Position numbers and translations under genes: made by a program. A stretch of 64,000 bases of DNA, taken from contig NZ_JABXYK010000001.1 of NCBI RefSeq assembly GCF_013378445.1, positions 310,001 to 374,000 on the forward strand, written 5' to 3'. Below are positions 12,285 through 53,200 of this stretch, one piece after another. A model generated the notes under the pieces. The model worked only from the letters and a program-made list of their open reading frames with translations. It was not told the DNA's origin and searched no databases. Position 1 is the first letter of the stretch. Every line of letters begins with the position of its first letter. Source of the DNA: Mycoplana rhizolycopersici (GTDB taxonomy: Bacteria; Pseudomonadota; Alphaproteobacteria; Rhizobiales; Rhizobiaceae).

Positions 12285-16076
<3,792 letters not shown>

Positions 16077-16083
16077 GTGGCGC

Positions 16084-17127
16084 TCATGACGTCGCGAGCG
16101 CTCTAAGCAGCAAGATCATCGCGTAGCTTAAGGCGAACAGGGCCAACAGCGACAGCACCACCGTGGCGCTGACGCGCGCTCCCGCCTGCATCACCTTGCG
16201 CAAGTCGACACCGAGCCCGAGCGCTGCCATCGCCACCACCGTCATCACGCCGGATGCATGGCCCATGGCGGCCGCAGCGGGTTCACTGATAAATCCGAGC
16301 GAGCGCGCCGCCAGCATCAGCAGAAAGCCGATGATGAACCACGGCACGAGTCGATAAAGCGGCGGGCGGCGACCCGTGGCACCGGCGCGTGCGGCCATCA
16401 GCGAGAGCGCAAACACGACCGGGCCGAGCATCAGGACCCGGACGAGCTTGACCAGCATCCCCACCTGGGCGCTTGCGACCGAGACCGGCGCCGTGGCGGC
16501 AAGCACCTGCGGAACGGCATAGACGGTCATTCCGGCCAGAACGCCGTAGTCGGTTGAGGAGAGGCCGAGCAGCGGAACGAGCAGCGGCAGAAGCAGCACC
16601 GTGAGCACGCCGAGCACCGCCGTGAACGCGATCGAAGAGGCGACGTCGTCGGATTTCGCGTGGATCACCGGTGCGGTCGCCGCAATCGCCGAATTGCCGC
16701 AGATCGCATTGCCGCAGGCGACCAGTACCGCCATGCGCTTCGGCAGACCGAACAGGCGGCCGATGCCATAGCTTGCGGCAAGCGCGCAAAAGACGACAAG
16801 CGCGATCGCACCGAGCATTGCGGGACCGATTGCGGCCAGGGCGGACGCACTGACGCCGGCGCCAAGCAGCACGATCGCGATCTCGAGAAAATATTTCGCA
16901 CTGAATTCGATCCCCGGCCCGAACAGGGCCGGGCGAGGCAGTGCCAGCCGAACGGCGGCCCCCAGCAGGATGGCAAGCACCAGCGCCTCGACCCAGGCCG
17001 TACCACCGAGCGCCCGTTCGAGCACATCCCCAAGTGTTGCAAGTACGGCGATCGCCACGGACAACGCGACACCGGGGACGCGGCCAGGAGCGACCTCGGA
17101 GGGAGAGAACGGAAAAAACTTGCTCAT
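16084..17127 (-). CDS. yeiH: YeiH/UPF0324-family putative anion exporter
   Basis: This 347-residue integral membrane protein belongs to the YeiH family (conserved hypothetical 698, putative sulfate/sulfite exporter). About ten hydrophobic segments are visible. The family hallmark is the AVLVACGNAICGNSAIAATAPVI-type stretch near residues 130-155, written here in part as CGNAICGNSAIAATAP. It is divergent from a LysR regulator, the same arrangement as yeiH and yeiE in E. coli, where YeiE responds to sulfite. The transported substrate is inferred; the family itself is clear. It converges on metH with only seven bases between the stop codons and no visible terminator. Confidence 0.85.
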   Translation of the reverse strand: MSKFFPFSPSEVAPGRVPGVALSVAIAVLATLGDVLERALGGTAWVEALVLAILLGAAVRLALPRPALFGPGIEFSAKYFLEIAIVLLGAGVSASALAAIGPAMLGAIALVVFCALAASYGIGRLFGLPKRMAVLVACGNAICGNSAIAATAPVIHAKSDDVASSIAFTAVLGVLTVLLLPLLVPLLGLSSTDYGVLAGMTVYAVPQVLAATAPVSVASAQVGMLVKLVRVLMLGPVVFALSLMAARAGATGRRPPLYRLVPWFIIGFLLMLAARSLGFISEPAAAAMGHASGVMTVVAMAALGLGVDLRKVMQAGARVSATVVLSLLALFALSYAMILLLRALATS

Positions 17128-27560: not shown

Positions 27561-28844
27561 TCAGACGCGCGCCTGAACCAGATGCGCCAGTTGCGCGCCG
27601 ACCTCGTAGTAACCTTCACGGATCGGGCGGAAGGATTGCGCAATCGGCTCGGTGACCGGCAATGGCAGGTCGCCCTCCACGATCTCGCCGGCAATGTGGC
27701 GGGCCAGCACCTTGCCGAACACCGTCCCCGGCGCGATGCCGCGGCCGTTATAGCCGGAAAACCCGATCACATTCTCGGCAAGGCGATGGAAGCGCGGCAG
27801 GTTGTCGACGGTCATGCCGATCTTGCCGTACCATTCGGCCTCGAACTCGACCTCGCCGATCTCGGGAAACAGCTTCTTCAGCGAGCGGCGCGCCCAGGCC
27901 TGGTGGATCGCGATGCCGGTGCCGCGCAGCGCGCCGACGCTGCCGAAAACGAGCCGGCCGAGCTTGTCATAGCGATAGGAGGAGAGGATTTCCGCCGTAT
28001 CCCAGGCACCCTCCCGCCCCGGCAGGATCTTCGTCTGCAGCTCCGGCGTCAGCGGCTTCGTGGCGAAATTGAAGTAAGGCAGATGGACGAGCTCGGCACG
28101 CACCTCGGCCCAGGGCGCGACCGTATAGGCGTTGGTCGCGACAATCACCCAGTCCGCGTTGACCGAACCCCTGTCGGTCTTGACCGTCCAGCGCCTGCCG
28201 GAACGCTCGGCTCCCGTCACCGGGCTTGATGTATGCACGCGGGCACCGGCCGCGATCGCAGCCTTCGCCAGCCCGCGGACATAGGCGAGCGGTTGGATCG
28301 TACCGGCGCGCATGTCCAGCAAGGCTCCGGCATAGGCCTCGGTCCCGACGCGCCTGGCCGTCTCCGCCGCGTCCAGCAGCGTCACCGGCGCGCCGCGGCG
28401 CGACCACTGCTCCGCCCGCGCCTGCAACTCCTCCAGGCCGGATTTGCCGATCGCACAATGCAGCGTTCCGACGGGATTGATCTCGCATTCGATCGCATGC
28501 TTCTGCACCAGCTCGAACACGAGCTTCGGCGCATTGCCGAGGACATCGAGCAGGCGATCGCCGTAGAGCTGCCCGAGGACGCCGGGAAGATCGTCGGGCA
28601 TCGTCCACATGCCGGCATTGACGAGCCCCACATTGCGGCCCGAGCCGCCGAAGCCGATTTCCTTGCCCTCCAGCAGAACCACCTTCGTCCCACGCTCGGC
28701 CAGATGGAGCGCCGCGGAAAAGCCGGTGAACCCGCCCCCGACGATCACGACATCCGCCTCCGCCGGACCGGAGAGGGCCTGCGTTGGCGGCGCAGGCGGT
28801 GCGGTCAGTTCCCAAAGGCCGTGGGAGCGGGGATCGTTCTGCAT
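27561..28844 (-). CDS. FAD-dependent amine/imino-acid oxidase, candidate L-pipecolate oxidase
   Basis: A 427-residue DAO-superfamily flavoprotein. The FAD-binding VVIVGGGFTGFSAALHLAERG is at about residues 32-52, with GFGGSGRNVGLVNAG next and GYNGRGIAPGT near the C-terminus. The relatives I recall include AmaA (L-pipecolate oxidase, about 428 residues), gamma-glutamylputrescine oxidase and DadA. The setting, next to HglS, AmaB-like and lysine-dehydrogenase-like genes, favours oxidation of pipecolate toward 2-aminoadipate semialdehyde. That assignment is an inference; the substrate could be another secondary amine or D-amino acid. A LysR gene lies 128 bp upstream on the same strand. Confidence 0.72.
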   Translation of the reverse strand: MQNDPRSHGLWELTAPPAPPTQALSGPAEADVVIVGGGFTGFSAALHLAERGTKVVLLEGKEIGFGGSGRNVGLVNAGMWTMPDDLPGVLGQLYGDRLLDVLGNAPKLVFELVQKHAIECEINPVGTLHCAIGKSGLEELQARAEQWSRRGAPVTLLDAAETARRVGTEAYAGALLDMRAGTIQPLAYVRGLAKAAIAAGARVHTSSPVTGAERSGRRWTVKTDRGSVNADWVIVATNAYTVAPWAEVRAELVHLPYFNFATKPLTPELQTKILPGREGAWDTAEILSSYRYDKLGRLVFGSVGALRGTGIAIHQAWARRSLKKLFPEIGEVEFEAEWYGKIGMTVDNLPRFHRLAENVIGFSGYNGRGIAPGTVFGKVLARHIAGEIVEGDLPLPVTEPIAQSFRPIREGYYEVGAQLAHLVQARV

Positions 28845-28972
28845 GGGTTGTCTTCTTCAATGGACGAGTTCTGGATGAACGCCACATTCCCCCATTGCCG
28901 GCAAGGTGGAAAGTGCTGTTTCGGCACCGGGTCATTCAGCCTGCGAATGAGCCCGAGCGCTGTCGGCACCGC

Positions 28973-29866
28973 TCAATTGACCTCGGACGCGATCCAGGCG
29001 CGGAAGGCCTGGCTCAGCGAGTTCTCGAGCTTGCCTTCCGGCACGACGAGATAATAGCTGTTGTCCGTCTGCATCGGCCGGTCGAAGACGACGGCGAGCC
29101 GGCCGTTCGCCAGTTCCTGCTCGATCAGGTAGCGCGGCAGGAGCGCAAAGCCCAGGCCTGCCACCGCCGCCTCGATCACCATGGAGAACTGGTCGAAGCG
29201 GTGGCCCCGGTAGGCCGTCTCGGTCGCCCCGCCGTTGATCTCGAACCACTGCGCCCACAGCTTCGGCCGCGTGGCCAGATGCATCAGCGGCGCAGTCTCC
29301 AGATCCTTCGGCTCGTTCAGCCGCCAGTGCCGCAGAAGCTCCGGGCTCGCCGCAGGCAGGATCACCTCGCTGCAGAGATAGGAGCAGGTGGCCCGCGCCC
29401 AGACCGGCTGGCCATAGTGGATGGCGAGATCGAAACTTTCCTCGTCGAAATCGAACGGCGCCGAGCGCGAGGCGACATTGAGCACCGTTCCCGGATATCT
29501 TTTGAGGAATGCCGGGATGCGCGGCGTTAGCCAGCGGCTGCCGAAGGTCGGGAGCGTGGCGATGGTGAGGCTGTGGTCCGAGCGCGCCGCCGACATGGCG
29601 CGCAACATCGTCTCTTCCGTCTGGTGCAGCAGCTTGCGCACTTCGGGCAGGAACCGGCGCCCGTCTTCCGACAGCACGACGCGCTGGCGTACGCGCTCGA
29701 ACAGCAGCACGCCGAGCTGTTCTTCCAGGTCCTTGATCTGCCGGCTGACCGCGCTCTGGGTAAGGTTCAGCTCATTGGCCGCCTGCGTGAAGCTGCCATG
29801 GCGTGCAGCACACTCGAACGCCTGCAGCGTCGTCACGTCGGGGATCAGCCTGCGGCTCAACTTCAT
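28973..29866 (-). CDS. LysR-family regulator, GcvA-like
   Basis: A 297-residue LysR protein. The helix-turn-helix is at residues about 12-60 (LQAFECAARHGSFTQAANEL, LNLTQSAVSRQIKDLEE), followed by an effector domain. Its N-terminal pattern (RLIPDVTTLQAFECAARHGS) is that of the GcvA/AmpR group. It is divergent from hglS with about 170 bp between the starts, and upstream of the FAD oxidase on the same strand, so it could control both arms of the lysine region. ATGATC occurs twice in the shared promoter (about 29926 and 29941), but no clear inverted repeat stands out. Confidence 0.85.
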   Translation of the reverse strand: MKLSRRLIPDVTTLQAFECAARHGSFTQAANELNLTQSAVSRQIKDLEEQLGVLLFERVRQRVVLSEDGRRFLPEVRKLLHQTEETMLRAMSAARSDHSLTIATLPTFGSRWLTPRIPAFLKRYPGTVLNVASRSAPFDFDEESFDLAIHYGQPVWARATCSYLCSEVILPAASPELLRHWRLNEPKDLETAPLMHLATRPKLWAQWFEINGGATETAYRGHRFDQFSMVIEAAVAGLGFALLPRYLIEQELANGRLAVVFDRPMQTDNSYYLVVPEGKLENSLSQAFRAWIASEVN

Positions 29867-30037
29867 TCGGCTCTCGCATCAACCCAGTCAAAACATGCGC
29901 GATCAATCAGCGTTCCGATCCGGTATGATCCATTTTCAGAATGATCGGGGCCTTCGCCCCTTGTAGAGCAATTCCAGGAAAAGTGTGAAGCTGTTTTGCA
30001 TCCGGACTTGCGTAATATTGAGACGGGACGGGCCGCC

Positions 30038-31435
30038 ATGAAAGAAAAAACGCATGTCTCCGCCGACGACATCCGCTCGGCATTCTCCGCCGCCATGTCG
30101 GCCATGTACCGCGACGAAGTGCCTGCCTACGGCACGCTGATGGCGTTGGTCGCACGCGTCAACGAGGAAACGCTGGCAGCCGATCCGCACCTGCAATCCC
30201 GCCTTGACGCGACCGATTCGCTTGAGCGCATCTCCGAGGAACGTCATGGGGCGATCCGCCTCGGCACACCGGCGGAGCTTTCGATGATGCGCCGCGTCTT
30301 TGCCGTGATGGGCATGTATCCGGTCGGCTACTACGACCTCTCGACCGCCGGCGTTCCGGTTCACTCCACCGCGTTTCGCCCGGTCGGCGACGCGGCACTG
30401 AAGCGCAATCCCTTCCGGGTCTTCACATCTCTGCTGCGGCTTGACCTGATCGCGGACGAGGCCCTGCGCGCGCAAGCCTCTGAAGTCCTGGCGGGGCGCA
30501 GGATCTTTACCGACCGGGCCGTCGAACTGGTCGAAAAAGCCGAGAAGGACGGTGGCCTGGACACTGTTGATGCGGAGGCCTTCGTCCGCGAGGTGCTTGA
30601 GACTTTCCGCTGGCATGACCGGGCGATCGTCAGCGCCGACATGTACAAGCGTCTGCACGACGCTCACCGCCTGATCGCCGATGTCGTCTCCTTCAAGGGG
30701 CCGCACATCAACCACCTGACCCCGCGCACCCTGGATATCGACAAGGTGCAGGCGCGGATGCCGGGCGACGGGATTGCGCCCAAGGCGGTCGTCGAAGGCC
30801 CTCCGACCCGCAAATGTCCGATCCTGCTGCGCCAGACATCGTTCAAGGCGCTGGAAGAGCCCGTGTCGTTCATCGGCGAGGGCGGCGAATGGAAAGCCGG
30901 CTCGCACACCGCGCGCTTCGGCGAGATCGAGCAGCGCGGCATCGCGCTCACCCCGAAGGGCCGCGCGCTCTACGACAAGCTGCTGAACGATACGCGCGCC
31001 ATCGCCCGTCCCGCAGCCGACGGCTCCAATGCCGCCGAGTACGAAGCGGCGCTGGCGAAGGTCTTCGAGGCCTTCCCCGACGATTGGAACGAGATCCGCA
31101 AGGCCGGCCTTGGCTATTTCGCCTATTCGCTCACCGAGAAGGGCCGCGCCGGCAAGGTCACCGGAGACGACATTGAAGCGCTGATCGCAGCCGGCGACGT
31201 GCAGTTCGACCCGATCGTCTACGAGGACTTCCTGCCCGTTTCCGCTGCCGGCATCTTCCAGTCCAACCTCGGCGACGAGGCGGCGCAGGAATTTGTCGCA
31301 AGCCCCAACCAGGTGATGTTCGAGCGCGACCTCGGCGCCAGCGTCCTTGACGAATTCGCCCACTATGCCGGCATCGAAAAGGCCTCTATTGAAGTGTGCC
31401 TTGGCGCTGCAGGCATGGCGGACGCTGCGGAGTAA
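30038..31435 (+). CDS. hglS: 2-oxoadipate dioxygenase/decarboxylase HglS (DUF1338)
   Basis: A 465-residue DUF1338 protein, the size of HglS (464 in Pseudomonas putida as I recall). It converts 2-oxoadipate to D-2-hydroxyglutarate with O2 and a bound metal. The metal and substrate residues known for HglS have counterparts: H70 and R74 in EERHGAIR, H226 in GPHINH, and a glutamate at 296 in FGEIEQRG. I place the start at the ATG at 30038; an alternative start 14 codons upstream adds sequence outside the family. It is followed after ten bases by a D-2-hydroxyglutarate dehydrogenase, then by AmaB- and aminotransferase-type genes, which fits terminal lysine catabolism. Confidence 0.88.
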   Translation: MKEKTHVSADDIRSAFSAAMSAMYRDEVPAYGTLMALVARVNEETLAADPHLQSRLDATDSLERISEERHGAIRLGTPAELSMMRRVFAVMGMYPVGYYDLSTAGVPVHSTAFRPVGDAALKRNPFRVFTSLLRLDLIADEALRAQASEVLAGRRIFTDRAVELVEKAEKDGGLDTVDAEAFVREVLETFRWHDRAIVSADMYKRLHDAHRLIADVVSFKGPHINHLTPRTLDIDKVQARMPGDGIAPKAVVEGPPTRKCPILLRQTSFKALEEPVSFIGEGGEWKAGSHTARFGEIEQRGIALTPKGRALYDKLLNDTRAIARPAADGSNAAEYEAALAKVFEAFPDDWNEIRKAGLGYFAYSLTEKGRAGKVTGDDIEALIAAGDVQFDPIVYEDFLPVSAAGIFQSNLGDEAAQEFVASPNQVMFERDLGASVLDEFAHYAGIEKASIEVCLGAAGMADAAE

Positions 31436-31445
31436 CGGTCGGCCG

Positions 31446-32864
31446 ATGATCGACGCAAAGCACATCGAGACGCTAAGGGCGCTGCTCGGCGAGAAGGGTC
31501 TCCTTACCGAGCCTGCCGACATGGCTGCCTACGAGACCGGCGCGCGCTACGACAAGGGTCGCGCCGCCTTCGTCGCGCGCCCCGCCTCGACGCAGGAGAC
31601 CTCTGCCGTCGTATCCTACTGCGTGAAAAACGGCATTGCGCTCGTGCCGCAGTCCGGCAATACTGGCCTGGTCTCCGGCTCCACCCCCGACAGTTCGGGC
31701 CAGGAAGGCATCCTCAGCCTCGACCGCCTGACCGCCCCGTTCGCACTGGACCGGGTGAACAGGACATTAGCCGCCGGCGCGGGCTTGCGCCTTTCGGACG
31801 TCAACCAGCGCCTGGAACAGGCCGGCCTGTTCTTTCCGATCGACCTCGGCGCGGACCCGCGTCTTGGCGGGATGATCGCCACCAACACCGGCGGCTCGCG
31901 CTTCCTGCGTTATGGCGACGTGCGACGCAACACGCTGGGGCTCACAGTCGTGCTCGCCGACGAGGCCGGCACGGTGCTTGAACTCGGCTCCGGGCTGCGC
32001 AAGAACAATACCGGCATCGACTGGAAACACGTGTTCATCGGCACCTCCGGCGCCTTCGGCATCGTCACCGAATGCGTGTTGAACCTAGAGCCGCTGCCGC
32101 GCCAGACCGCCACCGCCTTCCTCGTCCCGGCTGCGACCGATCGCGTTCCCGATTTGCTGCTCGCAATGGAAGACGCGCTCGGAAGCTACCTCTCCGCTTT
32201 CGAGGGCATGTCGAAAAATGCGGTCGCTGCAGCGCTCGCCCACGTCCCCTCGCTGCGCAATCCATTCCAGGGCGGCATCGTCCCGGACTTCGTCATCCTG
32301 GCGGAAATCTCCCGCACCTCGCCGCCGCGCGAGGGGGAGCAGCCGCTCGACGCGGTGCTGGAGGAAGTGCTGGCCGCGATCTGGGAGCATGAGGACGCCC
32401 CGCTCGCCGACGCGTTCGTCGGTCCTGCGCACGAGATGTGGGCGCTGCGTCATGCACTGTCGGAGGGCGTGAAGCATAGCGGGCGATTGATCGCCTTCGA
32501 TCTTTCCTTCCGTCGCGGCGACATCATGCGCTTCCTCGACCACATGAAGGCCGAGATGCCGGCGCATTTTGCCGACGTGACGATCTGCGACTTCGGCCAT
32601 ATCGGTGACGGCGGCGTTCACTTCAACCTCGTCGTCCCGGCCGACGATCCGCGCCTTGCCGATGCCGGTTTCGAAAGCTCGTTGCGGGAATGGGTCTTCA
32701 AGATGGCGGTGGAGGACTTCGGCGGCAGCTATAGCGCAGAGCATGCGATCGGCCGCAAGAACCAGGTCTTTTACGACCGCTACACGCCCGACGAGATCCG
32801 GCGGCTCGCCAGGGGCCTGAAGGCGATCACATCGCCGGCTCCCCTCGGCTGCGTCACCTTCTAG
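31446..32864 (+). CDS. FAD-linked D-2-hydroxyglutarate dehydrogenase
   Basis: A 472-residue flavoprotein of the vanillyl-alcohol-oxidase/PCMH fold. The FAD-binding half holds VPQSGNTGLVSGS (residues about 73-85) and the DLGADPRLGGMIATNTGG segment. The C-terminal half has the conserved HIGDGGVHFN and SAEHAIGRKN histidines. It should oxidise D-2-hydroxyglutarate, the product of HglS, to 2-oxoglutarate and pass electrons to an electron-transfer flavoprotein or quinone. D-lactate or glycolate dehydrogenases share this fold, but the ten-base gap after hglS makes hydroxyglutarate the best substrate. The ATG at 31446 is nearest to the family start. Confidence 0.87.
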   Translation: MIDAKHIETLRALLGEKGLLTEPADMAAYETGARYDKGRAAFVARPASTQETSAVVSYCVKNGIALVPQSGNTGLVSGSTPDSSGQEGILSLDRLTAPFALDRVNRTLAAGAGLRLSDVNQRLEQAGLFFPIDLGADPRLGGMIATNTGGSRFLRYGDVRRNTLGLTVVLADEAGTVLELGSGLRKNNTGIDWKHVFIGTSGAFGIVTECVLNLEPLPRQTATAFLVPAATDRVPDLLLAMEDALGSYLSAFEGMSKNAVAAALAHVPSLRNPFQGGIVPDFVILAEISRTSPPREGEQPLDAVLEEVLAAIWEHEDAPLADAFVGPAHEMWALRHALSEGVKHSGRLIAFDLSFRRGDIMRFLDHMKAEMPAHFADVTICDFGHIGDGGVHFNLVVPADDPRLADAGFESSLREWVFKMAVEDFGGSYSAEHAIGRKNQVFYDRYTPDEIRRLARGLKAITSPAPLGCVTF

Positions 32865-32921
32865 AACTACGGGCGGCCTGCGGACCGCCTGCAAACTACA
32901 CGTACAATGGAGAACAGGACG

Positions 32922-35719
<2,798 letters not shown>

Positions 35720-35750
35720 CGCTTCCTGCCGTCTCAAGGCACACGGGGAT

Positions 35751-35799
35751 GCCCTTCACCCGGCTACCGCCCCTTTCTCACCGTCATTGGGAGAGGGCG
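35751..35799. repeat. Possible degenerate rhizobial intergenic repeat
   Basis: The segment begins GCCCTTCACCCGGCTACC and ends with GGGAGAGGGC, giving inverted GCCCT/AGGGC ends and the pyrimidine-then-purine look of the short intergenic mosaic repeats common in rhizobia. Only one copy is seen in this window, so the call is weak. Confidence 0.3.
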
Positions 35800-35869
35800 C
35801 GGGGCGCCGCGCCAGATCCCGATCTCCGCGCCTGAAGAGAGGCCGCTTGCGGCAATCTCGCGCCGTGGT

Positions 35870-36268
35870 CTAGCCAGCGTTCCGGCAGGCGTCCTGAGCG
35901 CTCCACCATTCCGGCAACGCGTCCTCAAACGAGTGGTATTCGGGAGCGAGCGCCCTGTCGTTGATCTCGTCCATACCGCCCACGAGCAGCGCGACGGTCG
36001 GCTCGTCGTCGATCGCGCCGATCGAGCTGCCGCATCGGCTGCAGAACGCGCGGCTGGAATAGTCCGAGGAACGAAAGGTGGAAGGTGGTCCGCCCGGACC
36101 CACCCAGCGGACGCGGTCACGCGGGTATTCCACCCAGGCAGCCGTAGGCGCTCCGGTGTGCCGGCGGCACATGCCGCATGAGCAGGTGTGAGGCTTTTCG
36201 GGGTTTCCCTCGGCCTCGAAGCGGATCCAGCCGCACAGGCAACCGCCGCCGTGAACCTTCAATTGCAT
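35870..36268 (-). CDS. GFA-family (glutathione-dependent formaldehyde-activating-like) zinc protein
   Basis: A 132-residue protein of the GFA/CENP-V fold. The zinc-binding cysteines are in GGCLCGWIRF, CSCGMCRRHTGAP and FCSRCGSS. Most members have no proven enzyme activity, and the formaldehyde role applies only to a subset. The ATG at 36268 follows GGGCGAGGGG directly; an ATG nine codons upstream is possible. It converges with the aminotransferase gene and has no clear functional link to the lysine genes on either side. Confidence 0.82.
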   Translation of the reverse strand: MQLKVHGGGCLCGWIRFEAEGNPEKPHTCSCGMCRRHTGAPTAAWVEYPRDRVRWVGPGGPPSTFRSSDYSSRAFCSRCGSSIGAIDDEPTVALLVGGMDEINDRALAPEYHSFEDALPEWWSAQDACRNAG

Positions 36269-36357
36269 CCCCTCGCCCCTCCGCGAATACCGCACGCGAT
36301 GGCAACTGCTAAGGGGCGCGACACCTGCGCGTCAACAACCCGGCCATTAAAACGAAA

Positions 36358-36378
36358 CGCCCCGGACAAGCCGGGGCG
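36358..36378 (-). terminator. Terminator after the lysine-dehydrogenase-like gene
   Basis: An 8-bp perfect stem (CGCCCCGG 36358-36365, CCGGGGCG 36371-36378) with a 5-nt loop. On the minus strand it is followed by TTTCGTTTTAA, 28 bp after the stop codon of the dehydrogenase-like gene. Confidence 0.75.
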
Positions 36379-36405
36379 CCAATGGGTATGCCTTGGCAGG
36401 TGCGA

Positions 36406-37509
36406 TCAGCCTGCTGCGCGGTGGCTGCCGTGTTCCTGTGCGTAATAGTGCCCGAAGCGATTGGCGAGGAAGCTGTCCAGCGCGATTTCCTCCTGCCGGA
36501 CGAAGCCCTTCGCCCGCAGCGTGCCGTCGGCCAGCATGTCGAGCACGGCGCATATCGAACCGGCCGTGGTGATCTGGATGGCCGAATGCATGCGCCCGGC
36601 AATGACCGCGCTGTAGACCTTGTTGGCGTAGGTCTCCTGGATCAGGCGACCGTCCTTACGGCCGGAGACGGTGACGAAGACGATGACGACATCCTGCGTC
36701 GTGGTCGGCAGCGCGTTCTCGAAGATGTCCTTCAACACCTCGCGGCGATGACGAAGGCCGAGATCGTTGAGCAGCGCCTTCATGATCGCGGCGTGCCCCG
36801 GGTAGCGGATCGTCTTGTAGTTCAGCGTCCGCACCTTCCCCTTGAGGCTTTCGCAGAGCGTGCCGAGGCCGCCCGACGTATTGAAGGCCTCGTAGGTGAC
36901 GCCGTCGAGCGAGAATTCCTCGCGCTCCTCCAGCGCCGGAACCTCGATCAGGGCGCCTTCGACGATCGCCTCGCAGGGCTCGATATACTCGTTGATGACG
37001 CCGTCCGTGCTCCAGGTCAGGTTGTAGTTCAGCGCGTTCGAGGGGTATTGCGGCAGCGCGCCGACACGCATGCGCACGCTGTCGAGCGTGTCAAAGCGGC
37101 TGGCAAGGTCGTTGGCCACGATCGAGATGAAGCCTGGTGCGAGGCCGCATTGCGGGATGAAGGCCGTTTCCGCCTTCTCCGCAATCCGCTTCACCTGCCG
37201 GGTCGATTCCACGTCCTCGGTGAGGTCGAGATAATGGATGCCGGCCGAGGCGGCCGCCTCGGCGATTGCGACCGTGAGGTGATAGGGCGCAGCACTCAGG
37301 ACCGCGAACTTGCCCTTCAGCAGCGCGACGAGTGCTGCCGCGTCGGCGATATCGACGACGGCAGTGGCGACGTCCTTGTGCGCCTCGAAGGCAGCAAGCT
37401 GATCTGCGGCACGGTCGGCGACCGTCACCCGGTAGTCGCCGCTGTGTGCCAGAAGGCGTGCAATGGTGGAGCCGATTTTCCCAGCGCCGATGACGACGAT
37501 ATCTTTCAT
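36406..37509 (-). CDS. L-lysine 6-dehydrogenase / saccharopine-dehydrogenase-like enzyme
   Basis: A 367-residue NAD(P)-dependent enzyme of the saccharopine dehydrogenase superfamily. The Rossmann motif GAGKIGST is at residues 8-15, with YLDLTEDVESTRQVKRIAEK and CGLAPGFISI following. The length and single-domain form resemble L-lysine 6-dehydrogenase (EC 1.4.1.18, described from Agrobacterium), which makes 2-aminoadipate semialdehyde directly from lysine. A stand-alone saccharopine dehydrogenase is the alternative, but no lysine-ketoglutarate reductase is present in the window. It is divergent from an Lrp-type regulator, the usual partner of amino acid catabolic genes, and a terminator follows it. 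Confidence 0.75.
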   Translation of the reverse strand: MKDIVVIGAGKIGSTIARLLAHSGDYRVTVADRAADQLAAFEAHKDVATAVVDIADAAALVALLKGKFAVLSAAPYHLTVAIAEAAASAGIHYLDLTEDVESTRQVKRIAEKAETAFIPQCGLAPGFISIVANDLASRFDTLDSVRMRVGALPQYPSNALNYNLTWSTDGVINEYIEPCEAIVEGALIEVPALEEREEFSLDGVTYEAFNTSGGLGTLCESLKGKVRTLNYKTIRYPGHAAIMKALLNDLGLRHRREVLKDIFENALPTTTQDVVIVFVTVSGRKDGRLIQETYANKVYSAVIAGRMHSAIQITTAGSICAVLDMLADGTLRAKGFVRQEEIALDSFLANRFGHYYAQEHGSHRAAG

Positions 37510-37610
37510 TTTGTTTTTCCCCGCAGGCTGAAATTCATCGTGATTCTGCCGTTGGAAAGTGTCGATTCACAGCTGCAGATCTGGCATATTGAGAAGCAGA
37601 AATCGGCGGA

Positions 37611-38063
37611 ATGACGATGGCAATGAGCAATATGACACTAAACGCGAAAGACCGCGAGCTTCTGGCGATCCTCAGCGAGAACGCCCGCGAGCAGACGGCC
37701 ACCATCGCCCGCAAGCTCGGCCTGTCGCGCACCACCGTGCAGGCCAAGATCGAACGGCTCGAGCGTGAAGGCGTCATCACCGGCTATGGCGTGCGACTGT
37801 CCGACGCTTTTGAAAGCGGCATGGTGAAGGCGCATGTGCTGATCACGATCGCGCCGAAGACGCTTTCGCGCATTACCACCGAACTTCACGCGATCGCCGA
37901 GGTGAAAGCGCTGCATTCCGTTTCCGGCTCGTTCGACCTGATTGCCATCGTCGCGGCCGCTTCGATCGCCGAACTGGACCATCTGATCGACAGGATCGGC
38001 GAGATCGACGGGGTAGAGCGAACTTTGTCGTCGATCATCCTGTCGACTCGGATTCTTCGTTAG
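37611..38063 (+). CDS. Lrp/AsnC-family transcriptional regulator
   Basis: A 150-residue Lrp-type regulator. The helix-turn-helix is at about residues 10-60 (LNAKDRELLAILSENAREQT, LGLSRTTVQAKIERLEREGVI), then an RAM (amino-acid-sensing) domain with a SGSFDLIAIV segment. Several in-frame ATGs (37611, 37617, 37623, 37632) make the exact start uncertain. It is divergent from the lysine-dehydrogenase-like gene with about 100 bp between, so lysine-responsive control of that gene is the simplest inference. Confidence 0.88.
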   Translation: MTMAMSNMTLNAKDRELLAILSENAREQTATIARKLGLSRTTVQAKIERLEREGVITGYGVRLSDAFESGMVKAHVLITIAPKTLSRITTELHAIAEVKALHSVSGSFDLIAIVAAASIAELDHLIDRIGEIDGVERTLSSIILSTRILR

Positions 38064-38122: not shown

Positions 38123-39376
38123 CTATGCCAGGAACCGATCCGGGCGATAGGGCGCAAGATCCACGATCGTCTTCTCGCCGAGCATGGCTTCTGCCAGCGC
38201 CCTCCCGGTCACCGGCCCGAGCGTCATGCCGTGATGGGCGTGGCCGAAGGCGAACCACAGACCCGCGTGCCGCGGCGCCTTGCCGATGACCGGCATCATG
38301 TCCGGCGTGCAGGGCCTAGCACCCATCCACGGCTCTTCGTCGCGCCGTTCGGCGAGCGGGAAGAATTCCCGCGCCACCCGCTCCGCCCGGCGAAGCTGTA
38401 CCGGCGTCTTGCGGGCGTCTCGCTTGGCGAATTCCGCCCCCGTCGTCAGCCGGATGCCGCGGCTCATCGGCGCGAGGAAATAGCCGCGCTCGGAATCGAG
38501 CACCCAGTTGTTGAGCTTCGCCCCCTCGGCCGCGCCATAGTGCATGTGGTAGCCGCGCTTGACCGCCAGGGGAAAATGATAGCCGAACTTGCGTGTCACC
38601 GTGTCGGCCCAGGGACCGAGCGCAACGACGACGTCGGTGGCCTCCAGCGGTCCTTCGGGCGTCGCCACACGCCAGCCCTCGCCTTCGAGCACGTGCTCGA
38701 TGGTCGCGGCATCACCCGCCATGAGAACGCCGCCAAGAGACTGGAAATAGGCCACATAGGCCTTCATCAGCCCGCCGGGATCGAGGATCGACCAGGGATC
38801 GGTCCAGCGCAGGCCGCCCGTCAGCTCGGCGCGGATGTGCGGCTCGATTTGCCGCATTTCCGCGCCGGTGAATTTCTGGTGGTTGACGCCGAACTTGGCC
38901 GAAAGCTGCTCGGCCTCCGCATAGGCTGCGTCACGCGCCTTTTCGGTACGGAAAACCTTCATCCATCCGTCCTTGCGGATCAGCGCTTCCGCGCCGGATG
39001 CCTTGATGAGGTCCGCGTGTTCGCTTACCGAGTTTTCAATCAGCGGCGCATAAAGATGGGCGATCCGCTGGTGCTGCGTGAAACCGGAATGCCACCAGTA
39101 GCGCAGCAGGAAGGGCACCAGGCCCGGCAGCGCCGACAAATGGTAGTGGGCGTCGATCGTATTGTTCAGCGCGTAGCGGAACAAGGCACCGAAGTCGTGC
39201 GGGAAGCCATAGGGGAAGACGCCCTCGCGCTGGATGAGCCCGGCATTGCCGTAGGAGGTCTCCTCCGCCGGTCCCCGCCGGTCGACGAGAACGACCGATT
39301 TGCCGCGCCGCGCCAGATGGATTGCCGTCGAAATCCCGACCACCCCTGCGCCAAGTACGATGACATCCGTTTTCAT
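38123..39376 (-). CDS. DadA-like FAD-dependent D-amino acid dehydrogenase
   Basis: A 417-residue DAO-family flavoprotein with the N-terminal FAD motif VIVLGAGVVGISTAIHLARRG (residues 5-25), ETSYGNAGLIQREGVFPY as in DadA, and GHAHHGMTLGPVTGRALAE near the C-terminus. It should oxidise a D-amino acid or D-hydroxyproline and pass electrons to the respiratory chain. It ends 59 bp from the convergent Lrp gene. Its closeness to lysine genes makes a D-lysine or related D-amino acid substrate worth testing, but nothing visible fixes the substrate. It does not carry the GASGRN motif of the other two oxidases in the window. Confidence 0.82.
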   Translation of the reverse strand: MKTDVIVLGAGVVGISTAIHLARRGKSVVLVDRRGPAEETSYGNAGLIQREGVFPYGFPHDFGALFRYALNNTIDAHYHLSALPGLVPFLLRYWWHSGFTQHQRIAHLYAPLIENSVSEHADLIKASGAEALIRKDGWMKVFRTEKARDAAYAEAEQLSAKFGVNHQKFTGAEMRQIEPHIRAELTGGLRWTDPWSILDPGGLMKAYVAYFQSLGGVLMAGDAATIEHVLEGEGWRVATPEGPLEATDVVVALGPWADTVTRKFGYHFPLAVKRGYHMHYGAAEGAKLNNWVLDSERGYFLAPMSRGIRLTTGAEFAKRDARKTPVQLRRAERVAREFFPLAERRDEEPWMGARPCTPDMMPVIGKAPRHAGLWFAFGHAHHGMTLGPVTGRALAEAMLGEKTIVDLAPYRPDRFLA

Positions 39377-41335: not shown

Positions 41336-42685
41336 ATGTCCGAAACCGAAGACAACGCCTGGCTTGTAAACGCGGAATCGGTGGAGAGCATCCAGGCGGT
41401 CGTCTGCGACCTGAATGGCATCCTTCGCGGCAAGCGCGTTCCGGTCGGACAGGCGAAAAAGATCCTCGAGGGCGGCATCCGCATGCCGCTCTCGATCGTC
41501 GGCGTCGACATCTGGGGAGAGGACATCGTCGGCTCCTCGCATGTCTTTGCCAGCGGCGACATGGACGGCATCTGCAGCCCCACAGGCCGCGGCGCGCTGC
41601 CGGTCAACTGGACGCTGAAGCCGAGCGCGGTGGTGCCGTTGTGGCTGTTCAAGGAGACGGGTGAGCCCTTTCTGGCCGACCCGCGCCAGGCGCTTGCCCA
41701 TATCGTGCGGCAATACCACGAGCTGGGACTTCGCCCGGTCGTCGCCTCGGAGATGGAATTCTACCTGATCGATTCCGAGCCGGACCACGCCGAGCCGCCG
41801 ATCTCGCCCTACACCGGCAAGCGCCTCGATTCCGATGCGATCCTTTCGATCGACGAACTCGACGATTTCGGCCAGTTCTTCTCCGACGTCTATGCCGAAT
41901 GCGAACGCCAGAACGTGCCGGCCGATTCGGCGGTGGCGGAAAACGGCATCGGCCAGTTCGAGATCAACCTCATGCACACCGACGATCCGCTGAAGGCGGC
42001 GGACGATGCCCTGTTCTTCAAGCGCATCATCAAGGGGGTTGCACGCAAGCACGGCTTTGCCGCCACCTTCATGGCCAAGCCTTACGGCATGCGCTCCGGC
42101 AGCGGCATGCACGTGCATTTCAGCCTGGTCGACGAGGCCGGCAACAACGTCTTCGACGACGGAACGGCGGAAGGCTCCGATATCATGCGCCACGCCGTGG
42201 CGGGCCTGACACGCGGCATGGCCGAATCCACGCTCCTGTTCGCCCCGCACTTCAACTCCTATCGCAGGCTTCGGCCCGACACCCACGCGCCGACCTCGGT
42301 CACCTGGGGCTACGAAAACCGCACGGCCGCGATCCGCATCCCCGGCGGCAAGCCGTCGTCCCGCCGCATCGAACACCGCGTGGCCGGCGCCGATGCCAAC
42401 CCCTATCTGGTCATGGCCGGCATTCTCGGCGCCGCCCTGGTCGGCATCCGCAACAAATGGGAACCGCCAACGCCGGTCGCCGGCCGCGCCTACCAGACCA
42501 AGGCACCGCGCATCCCGAGCGAATGGGGCTCCGCGGTCACTGCCTTCGAGAACGGGGCGATCGTTTCCGAGATCTTCGACCAGGAACTGCGCTCTATGCT
42601 GATCGCCTGCAAGCGGCAGGAGATCGCCGGCTTCTCCGAGCAGGTGACCGACTTCGAATTCAGCGCCTATCTGGAAATCGTCTGA
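41336..42685 (+). CDS. puuA: Gamma-glutamylputrescine synthetase PuuA (glutamine-synthetase family)
   Basis: A 449-residue glutamine-synthetase-like ligase. The metal and ATP motifs are VASEMEFYLID, AENGIGQFEINL, GSGMHVHFSL and PGGKPSSRRIEHR. It lacks the regulatory C-terminal adenylylation region of GlnA and begins with an N-terminal domain typical of PuuA/GlnA3-type enzymes. It joins glutamate to putrescine (or another amine) with ATP. The next gene, overlapping by one base, encodes the matching oxidase PuuB. A GGGGGG tract lies just before the ATG. Other amine substrates such as ethanolamine or aminoalcohols cannot be excluded. Confidence 0.85.
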   Translation: MSETEDNAWLVNAESVESIQAVVCDLNGILRGKRVPVGQAKKILEGGIRMPLSIVGVDIWGEDIVGSSHVFASGDMDGICSPTGRGALPVNWTLKPSAVVPLWLFKETGEPFLADPRQALAHIVRQYHELGLRPVVASEMEFYLIDSEPDHAEPPISPYTGKRLDSDAILSIDELDDFGQFFSDVYAECERQNVPADSAVAENGIGQFEINLMHTDDPLKAADDALFFKRIIKGVARKHGFAATFMAKPYGMRSGSGMHVHFSLVDEAGNNVFDDGTAEGSDIMRHAVAGLTRGMAESTLLFAPHFNSYRRLRPDTHAPTSVTWGYENRTAAIRIPGGKPSSRRIEHRVAGADANPYLVMAGILGAALVGIRNKWEPPTPVAGRAYQTKAPRIPSEWGSAVTAFENGAIVSEIFDQELRSMLIACKRQEIAGFSEQVTDFEFSAYLEIV

Positions 42686-43995
42686 TGACCAAGAACGACC
42701 GATCCTATGCCGGCGACGGCAGCTATCCCGGCAGCTACTATGCCGCTTCCCGAAACATCGACCGCCCGCCCCGTATTCTGGAGGGAGACGTGCGGGCGGA
42801 CGTCGCCGTTCTCGGCGCCGGCTATTCCGGCATGTCGACGGCGATCCATCTCGCCGAACTCGGCTACAAGGTCGTCGTCGTCGAGGGCGCAGGCGTCGGC
42901 TGGGGCGCTTCGGGACGGAACGGCGGCCAGGTCGTGAACGGCCTGAACGCCAGCCTCGACACGATCAGGCGCCGCTACGGCGAGGCGGCCGGCGCCTTTG
43001 TCGGCAGCCTCGTTCAGGAAGGCGGCAAGATCATCCGCCGCATCGTCAGCCAGTACGGCATCGAATGCGATCTGAAGCCGGGCAACATCTATGCCGCCTA
43101 CACGGCAGCGCATATGAAGGAGCTAGAGTACAAGAAAGCGCTCTGGAAGAGCTACGGCATGGATGACCACGAGCTTCTCGACAAGGAAGCCATCCGCAAG
43201 CTCGTCAACACCGACGCCTATGTCGGCGGCATGCTCGATACGACCGGCGGCCACATGCACCCGCTCAATCTCGTCCTTGGCGAGGCCGCCGCGCTCGAAA
43301 CGCTCGGAGGCATTGTCTACGAACAATCGCCAGTGACCAAGGTCGAGCACGGGGCGGAAAAGCCAGTGCTGCACACGGCTAGGGGACGGGTGACGGCCAA
43401 TGTCGCCGTCCTCTGCGGCAATGCCTATCTCGGCGACGTGGTGCCCAAGCTCGTCTCACGCGTCATGCCGGTCTCCACCCAGATGATCGCGACCGAGCCG
43501 CTCGGTGCCGAGCGGGCCGACGCGCTGATTCCGAGCGACATGTGCGTGGAAGATGTGCGCTACATCCTCGACTACTTCCGCCTTTCGGCCGACAAGCGGA
43601 TGATTTTCGGCGGCGGCACGGTCTATGGCGGCACCGATCCGGCCGATGTGCGCGCCAAGCTGAAGCCCAACCTCGAGAAGGTCTTCCCCTCCTTGAAGGA
43701 CGTGAACATCGACTATGCGTGGAGCGGAAACTTTGCGCTTTCCTTCTCGCGCGTGCCGCAGATGGGCAAGATCGGCAGGAACACTTACTTCGCCCACGGC
43801 TATAGTGGCCACGGCGTCACCGGCTCCCATCTCTTCGGCAAGATCCTGAGTGAAGCCATTCATGGCGACGTCAGCCGGTTCAGCCAGTTCGAAAAGCTGC
43901 CCTGGATCCCGTTCCCCGGCGGACGCATGTTCCGCGCCCAGTATTCGACGGTCGGCTCGTGGTGGTACCAGTTCAAGGACGCCTTCGGTCTCTGA
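42685..43995 (+). CDS. puuB: Gamma-glutamylputrescine oxidase PuuB
   Basis: A 436-residue DAO-family flavoprotein. The N-terminal SYPGSYYAASRN segment is characteristic of PuuB, the FAD motif is VAVLGAGYSGMSTAIHLAELG, and GWGASGRNGGQVVNG follows. The C-terminal GYSGHGVTGSHLFGK closes the FAD site. It oxidises gamma-glutamylputrescine to the aminobutyraldehyde, releasing ammonia and H2O2. Its ATG overlaps the puuA stop codon (TGATG), so the pair is translationally coupled. puuC and puuD are not next to it. Confidence 0.88.
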   Translation: MTKNDRSYAGDGSYPGSYYAASRNIDRPPRILEGDVRADVAVLGAGYSGMSTAIHLAELGYKVVVVEGAGVGWGASGRNGGQVVNGLNASLDTIRRRYGEAAGAFVGSLVQEGGKIIRRIVSQYGIECDLKPGNIYAAYTAAHMKELEYKKALWKSYGMDDHELLDKEAIRKLVNTDAYVGGMLDTTGGHMHPLNLVLGEAAALETLGGIVYEQSPVTKVEHGAEKPVLHTARGRVTANVAVLCGNAYLGDVVPKLVSRVMPVSTQMIATEPLGAERADALIPSDMCVEDVRYILDYFRLSADKRMIFGGGTVYGGTDPADVRAKLKPNLEKVFPSLKDVNIDYAWSGNFALSFSRVPQMGKIGRNTYFAHGYSGHGVTGSHLFGKILSEAIHGDVSRFSQFEKLPWIPFPGGRMFRAQYSTVGSWWYQFKDAFGL

Positions 43996-52072: not shown

Positions 52073-53200
52073 ATGATCCTGAACGAAGAGCAGATCCAGA
52101 TCCGCGACATGGCGCGCGACTTCGCGCGCGAGCGGCTTATGCCGGGCGCGGCCGAGCGCGACGCGACGAGCCGCTTTCCCCGCGAGGAACTGCGCGAGAT
52201 GGGCGAACTCGGCTTCCTCGGCATGCTGGTGCCGGACACCTATGGCGGCTCGGAGACGGGAACGGTGGCCTATGCCGTGGCACTGGAGGAGATCGCCGCC
52301 GGCGACGGCCCCTGCTCCACCATCATGAGCGTGCACAGTTCGGTCGGCTGCGTTCCGATCCTGAAATACGGGACGGAGGCGCAGAAGCAGCGCTTCCTGC
52401 CGAAGCTTGCCAGCGGCGAATGGATCGGCGGATTCGCGCTGACCGAGCCGCAGGCCGGCTCCGACGCCTCCAACCTGAAGACCCGTGCCCGCCGCGACGG
52501 CGATCACTACGTCATCGACGGCGCCAAGCAGTTCATCACCTCCGGCAAGAACGGCAACGTCGTCATCGTATTTGCGGTCACCGATCCCGACGCCGGCAAG
52601 AAGGGCATCTCCGCCTTCATCGTGCCGACCGACACACAGGGCTACGAGGTGGTGCGCGTCGAGCACAAGCTCGGGCTTCATTCCTCCGATACATGCCAGA
52701 TCGCCTTCAGCGGCATGCACATCCCCGCCGGCCTCAGGCTCGGCGAAGAGGGCGAGGGCTACAGGATCGCGCTTTCCAATCTGGAGGGCGGCCGCATCGG
52801 CATCGCCGCACAATCCGTCGGCATGGCACGGTCGGCCTTCGAGGCGGCACGGGACTATGCCCGTGAGCGCACCGCGTTCGGCTCGCCGATCGTCGACCAC
52901 CAGGCTGTCGCCTTCCGCCTTGCCGACATGGCGACGCAGATCGAAGTGGCCCGCCAGATGGTTCTGCACGCGGCCCAACTGAAGGAAGAGGGCCGTCCCT
53001 GCCTGACGGAAGCTTCGATGGCAAAGCTCTTTGCCTCCGAGATGGCCGAGAAGGTCTGCTCCGACGCCATCCAGATTCACGGCGGCTATGGCTACATGGC
53101 CGACTACCCGGTCGAGCGCATCTATCGCGACGTCCGCATCTGCCAGATCTACGAGGGCACCAGCGACGTCCAGCGCATCGTCATCGCCCGCAATCTATAG
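52073..53200 (+). CDS. Acyl-CoA dehydrogenase, isobutyryl/2-methylbutyryl-CoA type
   Basis: A 375-residue flavoprotein with the usual three-domain fold: [19 protein letters not shown] in the middle beta domain and the catalytic glutamate E361 in [17 protein letters not shown]. The glutamate position near the C-terminus is that of short/branched-chain enzymes rather than isovaleryl-CoA dehydrogenase. With BCKDH downstream it should desaturate isobutyryl-CoA and/or 2-methylbutyryl-CoA, donating electrons to ETF. It lies 37 bp after the thiolase. Confidence 0.92.

Follow-up and report, generated by a model that had tools for sequence, protein, structure and literature searches.

Can the carbon of lysine be carried all the way to 2-oxoglutarate, through D-2-hydroxyglutarate, by the products of a single locus? 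The question is raised by the genes at positions 27561 to 38063 of a 64,000-nucleotide stretch of the Mycoplana rhizolycopersici genome (contig NZ_JABXYK010000001.1, positions 310,001 to 374,000; hereafter the window), in which a sequence-only reading had proposed such a chain around the gene hglS. The chain is well backed by matches to family models, by conserved active-site residues and by comparison across genomes, and we hold with good confidence that the locus as a whole specifies a catabolic route from lysine and pipecolate to 2-oxoglutarate. The members named in the sequence-only reading all stand, but its list was incomplete, as an amaA-like gene and a lysR gene also lie within these coordinates. 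The features are as follows, with D2HGDH denoting D-2-hydroxyglutarate dehydrogenase.

27561-28844, minus strand: amaA-like gene of the FAD-dependent L-pipecolate oxidase type, 427 amino acids (NCBIfam NF050086, pipecolate_AmaA)
28973-29866, minus strand: gene for a LysR-family (GcvA-like) regulator, divergent from hglS (NF008352, 281 bits, cut-off 288)
29867-30037, no strand: divergent lysR-hglS intergenic region with partly conserved blocks
30038-31435, plus strand: hglS, 2-oxoadipate dioxygenase/decarboxylase (PF07063; NF049974, 759 bits, cut-off 550)
31446-32864, plus strand: gene for a GlcD/D2HGDH-type FAD enzyme (PDB 3pm9, E 6e-60; human D2HGDH 6lpn, E 2e-56)
32922-34445, plus strand: amaB, L-piperideine-6-carboxylate/aminoadipate-semialdehyde dehydrogenase of the ALDH7 family (NF050084, 836 bits, cut-off 730)
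34487-35719, plus strand: aatB-type class I aminotransferase gene (PDB 6f35, aspartate aminotransferase B, E 7e-224)
35870-36295, minus strand: gene for a GFA-family protein between the operon and lysDH (PF04828)
36406-37509, minus strand: lysDH-like gene for a predicted NAD(P)-dependent lysine 6-dehydrogenase of the saccharopine dehydrogenase superfamily (PF03435, PF16653, 3abi)
37611-38063, plus strand: lrp, Lrp/AsnC regulator gene divergent from lysDH (PF01037; best NCBIfam model LysM, 86.5 bits, cut-off 180)
38123-39376: gene for a DadA-like FAD oxidoreductase beside lrp

The first question is whether these genes belong together. The comparison set comprises the best 80 of 192 hglS loci found, from named genomes and hence close relatives, with genes called from open reading frames of at least 100 amino acids at 60% coverage and per-gene identity limits; five of the loci (L034, L035, L040, L044 and L050) end at contig edges. 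The nearest named relative by HglS among the matches listed is Rhizobium subbaraonis JC85, at 96% identity. The four genes from hglS to aatB form the plus-strand run that had been described, with the lysDH-like gene and lrp close by, and their order is kept among relatives, amaB being present in 77 and aatB in 76 of the 80 loci. By coordinates the gaps in the window are 10 nucleotides (hglS-D2HGDH), 57 nucleotides (D2HGDH-amaB) and 41 nucleotides (amaB-aatB); across the loci the corresponding medians are 7, 49 and 14 nucleotides, with spacings of 100 nucleotides or less in 54/54, 42/51 and 73/73. None of the three gaps in the four-gene run holds a terminator-like site, and strong terminator-like stems lie on the minus strand 3' of amaA and of lysDH, although the seven terminator-like sites found are no excess over the mean of 7.3 in shuffled sequence. 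A scan of the locus for sigma-70-like promoters, including the lysR-hglS region, gave no consensus match. The four genes are likely to be transcribed as one unit. The GFA-family protein was considered as a pathway member and rejected, as it occurs in one of the 80 loci at the limits used, and it probably lies outside the pathway.

The central enzyme is HglS. The window protein matches the Pseudomonas putida hydroxyglutarate synthase 6w1g (E 2e-168), and when the two are aligned H70, R74, H226, E294, V402 and S403 are all retained. His70, His226 and Glu294 are described as metal ligands and Arg74, Val402 and Ser403 as substrate contacts of HglS, which converts 2-oxoadipate to D-2-hydroxyglutarate (PMC7286885). 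Five of these six residues are present in 80/80 relatives, and Arg74 in 79/80. Because the active site is kept in the window protein and its relatives, it is very likely that this HglS also acts on 2-oxoadipate, and with O2 and Fe(II) it would release D-2-hydroxyglutarate and CO2.

The 2-oxoadipate would be supplied by AmaB and AatB. AmaB passes a curated equivalog model (NF050084), and its best structure matches include the semialdehyde dehydrogenase Pcd (6rtr) and alpha-aminoadipic semialdehyde dehydrogenase; it is predicted to oxidise aminoadipate semialdehyde, or piperideine-6-carboxylate, to 2-aminoadipate. AatB would then yield 2-oxoadipate by transamination, a role suggested by its place in the operon. 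Its nearest PDB structure, 6f35, is 97.6% identical to the aminotransferase of the Sinorhizobium meliloti 4H41 hglS operon (L030), so that the enzyme of known structure is nearly the same as the transaminase of that operon.

The step that follows HglS is informed by gene replacement. No curated NCBIfam model names the flavoenzyme encoded directly downstream of hglS, but the 80 loci differ in what they carry: 54 have this GlcD type, 19 a YdiJ-type D2HGDH, seven neither (two of which end at contig edges) and none both. The YdiJ-type proteins are larger, at about 1010 amino acids, and are annotated as FAD- and Fe-S-binding, the FAD domain being common to the GlcD type; one of them (L068) was scored on the YdiJ model (1468 bits, cut-off 1350) and served as the reference by which the other 18 were recognised through similarity. 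With the seven loci that have neither type set aside, a quickly built HglS tree requires at least two exchanges between the types; with GlcD-type, YdiJ-type and neither treated as three states it requires eight changes. Among 61 genomes of the family, the window's own included, hglS is present in 17 and the GlcD type (E 1e-100) in seven, all of which have hglS, with the two genes adjacent each time (Fisher p 4e-5, uncorrected for kinship). The window's own genome lacks YdiJ, its best match being 35% identical over part of YdiJ. This locus-level replacement, together with the occurrence of the GlcD type only with hglS, is as expected if both types share D-2-hydroxyglutarate oxidation, and it indirectly supports the GlcD-type flavoenzyme as the putative enzyme for D-2-hydroxyglutarate to 2-oxoglutarate. 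The window flavoenzyme also keeps the equivalents of Arg386, His434, His441, Glu475 and His476 when aligned with 6lpn, residues described as serving metal and C1/C2 binding in human D2HGDH (PMC7801405).

How does carbon enter the route? LysDH is predicted to take the epsilon-amino group off L-lysine to give aminoadipate semialdehyde, which would be in equilibrium with piperideine-6-carboxylate. The protein matches PF03435 (Sacchrp_dh_NADP, 82 bits) and the C-terminal family PF16653 (84 bits), and its PDB matches are 3ic5 (E 2e-22) and 3abi (E 7e-22). The latter is Pyrococcus horikoshii PH1688, which has a similar length of about 370 amino acids and is termed a lysine 6-dehydrogenase (PMC10413350). 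The predicted LysDH structure was too weak (pLDDT 53, from a 15-row alignment) and was not used. Ruegeria sp. AD91A has a protein with 55% identity to the window LysDH, and directly downstream of its gene lies one for an AmaB-type protein (68% identical to the window AmaB, 818 bits). In Ruegeria pomeroyi the genes lysdh (SPO0234) and aasadh (SPO0235) have consecutive locus tags and updated functions, and experimental verification is described for several genes in the two lysine pathways of this species (PMC4334477). Other PF03435 matches are present in the Mycoplana genome (L082, L083 and L085 to L088), of which L082 and L085 have no NCBIfam match at 1e-40.

The entry by lysine proposed in the sequence-only reading is thus retained, but the chain was incomplete: an AmaA-type pipecolate oxidase is encoded at the locus too, which adds L-pipecolate as a second entry. 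AmaA is predicted to convert L-pipecolate to piperideine-6-carboxylate, and the locus probably funnels pipecolate to 2-oxoglutarate in this way. The protein scores 464 bits on NF050086, with the next family at 135 bits, and a homologue on a Phaeobacter inhibens plasmid scores 430 bits. When P. inhibens DSM 17395 was cured of a 262-kb plasmid that bears a putative gene for pipecolate oxidase, pipecolate accumulated (PMC5653290); that gene and the 430-bit homologue are not equated here. D-lysine entry is also conceivable, and possibly occurs, because the genome encodes a DpkA-like reductase elsewhere (239 bits to the 2cwf group, next match 125). We also note that in L043, a locus on the complete chromosome CP131056.1 of a Hyphomicrobiales member, a single 859-amino-acid open frame (14393-16972) joins an AatB part (548 bits) to an AmaA-type domain (400 bits), a natural fusion of the aminotransferase with a pipecolate oxidase.

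Several observations weigh against this reading of the locus. At the entry side, the amaA-like product falls under the NF050086 cut-off of 600 bits (an 'exception' model) and is therefore labelled AmaA-type and not AmaA. The lysDH gene is absent near hglS in all but 33 of the 80 loci, where the stretches fetched include it, and six of the 17 hglS genomes are without it. The name of 6f35, aspartate aminotransferase B, points to a different substrate from that proposed for AatB, and one of the 80 HglS relatives has Trp at Arg74. At the D2HGDH step, the second exchange on the HglS tree rests on L058 alone, whose ydiJ is 48% identical and oppositely oriented, and the tree itself, quickly built, has many weak forks. 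Seven of the 17 hglS genomes have neither D2HGDH type at the limits used. Two of the 61 genomes, G011 and G057, have both the GlcD type and the YdiJ type, in different places; strict genome-wide exclusion of the two was therefore rejected, and exclusion is claimed at the locus only. Finally, the residue equivalent to human Lys401 (6lpn) is Ala in the window flavoenzyme and in 54/54 orthologues. In human D2HGDH this lysine forms a salt bridge to the C5 carboxylate and its mutation abolished activity, and the position is likewise small in GlcD and D-lactate dehydrogenases (PMC7801405).

The first alternative to be weighed is that the locus works as in P. putida, for L-pipecolate and D-lysine with AmaA as the entry, and that lysDH and lrp are neighbours with another role, such as aminoadipate formation under salt stress. 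AmaA-type genes are linked to 21 of the 80 hglS loci in differing orientations (20 as separate genes and one as the L043 fusion), and this alternative also draws on the DpkA-like reductase and on the pipecolate accumulation in plasmid-cured P. inhibens. In S. meliloti Ak57, moreover, the hglS operon, lysDH-lrp and an amaA-type gene are at separate places on pSymB, with some 250 kb between hglS and lysDH-lrp; an Azospirillum plasmid and a Nitratireductor plasmid have no annotated hglS-type gene within 8 kb of lysDH-lrp, and on a Rhizobium phaseoli plasmid no lrp is annotated alongside lysDH, the gene tables of all three being incomplete. Against a chance neighbourhood, however, the 33 loci with lysDH-lrp near the operon include 17 of the GlcD type (all 17 with amaA), 14 of the YdiJ type and two with neither, and this linkage needs four changes on the HglS tree. 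Of the 61 genomes, 15 have lysDH at 64% identity or above (four weaker rows at 42-43% are outside the count), namely 11 of the 17 with hglS and four of the 44 without it (Fisher p 2.5e-5, uncorrected for kinship). We consider it unlikely that lysDH is unrelated to the route, and favour L-lysine and L-pipecolate as joint entries.

The second alternative concerns the missing lysine of the flavoenzyme. The genome encodes a second D2HGDH-like protein elsewhere (L091, 613-2139) that retains the Lys401 equivalent, and this canonical-looking paralogue could handle D-2-hydroxyglutarate while the window flavoenzyme oxidises some other D-2-hydroxy acid. In two other positions the proteins are alike, L091 having Ser at Thr390 and Phe at Tyr432 as in the window flavoenzyme, and the flavoenzyme orthologues have Phe for Tyr432 in 54/54 and Ser for Thr390 in 53/54. 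The window enzyme, however, is found only beside hglS (7/7 genomes) and is replaced there by a YdiJ-type D2HGDH in other species, and its orthologues retain Arg386, His434, His441, Asn443, Glu475 and His476 in 54/54, so we regard a division of labour of this kind as very unlikely. A scenario that we put forward tentatively, as somewhat less than an even prospect, keeps the flavoenzyme at D-2-hydroxyglutarate oxidation: it may represent a separate class of D2HGDH dedicated to HglS, in which the lysine for the distal carboxylate was given up (Ala in all 55 compared) and other basic residues bind the substrate, possibly with coupling to HglS; the Sinorhizobium aspartate aminotransferase B would then be the operon's 2-aminoadipate transaminase in the cell.

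The third alternative, that lysine carbon leaves mainly through glutaryl-CoA while HglS is a minor overflow holding 2-oxoadipate low, finds support in a glutaryl-CoA dehydrogenase in the genome and in biotin synthesis in Agrobacterium tumefaciens, but we judge it the least probable, since a single E1 makes a second, 2-oxoadipate-dedicated E1 unlikely, hglS stands in one run with amaB and aatB, and A. tumefaciens C58, unlike the window genome, is reported to have no recognisable hydroxyglutarate-route genes (PMC7645780). The dehydrogenase (L094) scores 650 bits to 3gnc, and the three best and nine of the 17 listed structures carry the name glutaryl-CoA dehydrogenase; only one E1 of the 2-oxoglutarate dehydrogenase type (PF16870) was found. 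The sequence-only reading had described the route as free of the glutaryl-CoA branch, which is true of the locus but not of the genome, and the absence of that branch from the organism is rejected. In resting cells of A. tumefaciens biotin synthesis drew on lysine, 2-oxoadipate and glutarate alike, with glutaryl-CoA the reported precursor (PMC7645780). Since the window's organism encodes a glutaryl-CoA dehydrogenase and A. tumefaciens has such a biotin route, 2-oxoadipate is likely to be a branch point here, with HglS as the catabolic exit that we favour.

The regulator named in the sequence-only reading was Lrp. An lrp gene is indeed near the operon, but it travels with lysDH (both in the same 33 of the 80 loci), and the regulator linked most tightly to hglS is the divergent LysR, in 76/80. 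LysR is the probable regulator of the operon and Lrp that of the lysine dehydrogenase gene. In a k-mer footprint of the lysR-hglS intergenic region, covering 72 of the 80 loci, the best block (at least 13 of 15 positions matched) is retained in 53%, and the operator search of this region gave weak blocks and nothing more. Short blocks within 29867-30037, near the start of lysR and around the element AGAATGAT, are shared by several relatives and are candidate sites of the LysR operator.

Among the neighbouring genes, the DadA-like type is present in 13 of the 80 hglS loci, all 13 with lysDH; in 12 of these it lies just after lrp and in one (L012) upstream. Its product may use a D-amino acid, D-lysine for example, as substrate. 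Further along, glutamine-synthetase-like and PuuB-like FAD oxidoreductase genes follow a GntR-like gene at 41336-43995 (noted by eye), which suggests a polyamine catabolic unit. An acyl-CoA dehydrogenase gene (PF02771, 142 bits) is present at 52073-53200, preceded by a thiolase-like gene (noted by eye).

The locus thus offers a complete and testable candidate gene set for conversion of L-lysine and pipecolate to 2-oxoglutarate in root-associated bacteria. Interchangeable D2HGDH types at one locus make a good comparative case for the HglS route beyond Pseudomonas, and the replacement suggests a function for a GlcD-like subfamily. At 2-oxoadipate an O2-dependent path through HglS likely parts from the glutaryl-CoA used by Agrobacterium for biotin. 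A plasmid typed as conjugative carries at least one version of the gene set with the YdiJ type: the Rhizobium leguminosarum plasmid locus L107 (NZ_CP016288.1, 24143-45219), which is outside the 80-locus set, has lysR, hglS, amaB, aatB, ydiJ (product at 1462 bits on the YdiJ model), lrp and lysDH together. We note that this gene set adjoins transposase and recombinase genes. In a literature search that had most subscription journals outside it, no title or abstract start among the matches listed describes this rhizobial locus.

How, then, does the window locus compare with known systems? In P. putida the pathway genes are spread out and the D2HGDH is of the YdiJ type. The D-lysine/pipecolate pathway of that species resembles the window in its AmaA-, AmaB- and HglS-type enzymes and in the conversion of 2-oxoadipate to D-2-hydroxyglutarate (PMC7286885), but in the window all is in one locus, the D2HGDH is of the GlcD type and there is an additional lysine dehydrogenase, by which L-lysine could enter without racemisation. 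The R. pomeroyi pathway (SPO0234 and SPO0235) shares LysDH and an ALDH7-type dehydrogenase (PMC4334477); in the related arrangement on the Ruegeria sp. AD91A plasmid (L110, NZ_CP031947.1, 514623-525681), unlike the window, the gene table, which is incomplete, lists no HglS-type gene within 5 kb. Genes for cyanophycinase and cyanophycin synthetase come after lysDH-amaB there. Rice FLO7, a plant homologue of HglS, shares the conversion of 2-oxoadipate to 2-hydroxyglutarate (PMC7286885), although plants enter via saccharopine and LKR/SDH (PMC7253579) and the window locus would do so via lysine dehydrogenase. The Rhizobium tropici (L068) and R. leguminosarum (L107) versions share lysR, hglS, amaB, aatB, lysDH and lrp with the window, but have a YdiJ-type D2HGDH after aatB in place of the GlcD type after hglS, and no amaA was found within the stretches examined there, whereas the window has an amaA-like gene. 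Each reaction type is already known; the variant lies in a LysDH entry joined to an HglS end, an exchangeable D2HGDH and an altered carboxylate site, and it is the grouping of these known parts and their swapping between species that is informative.

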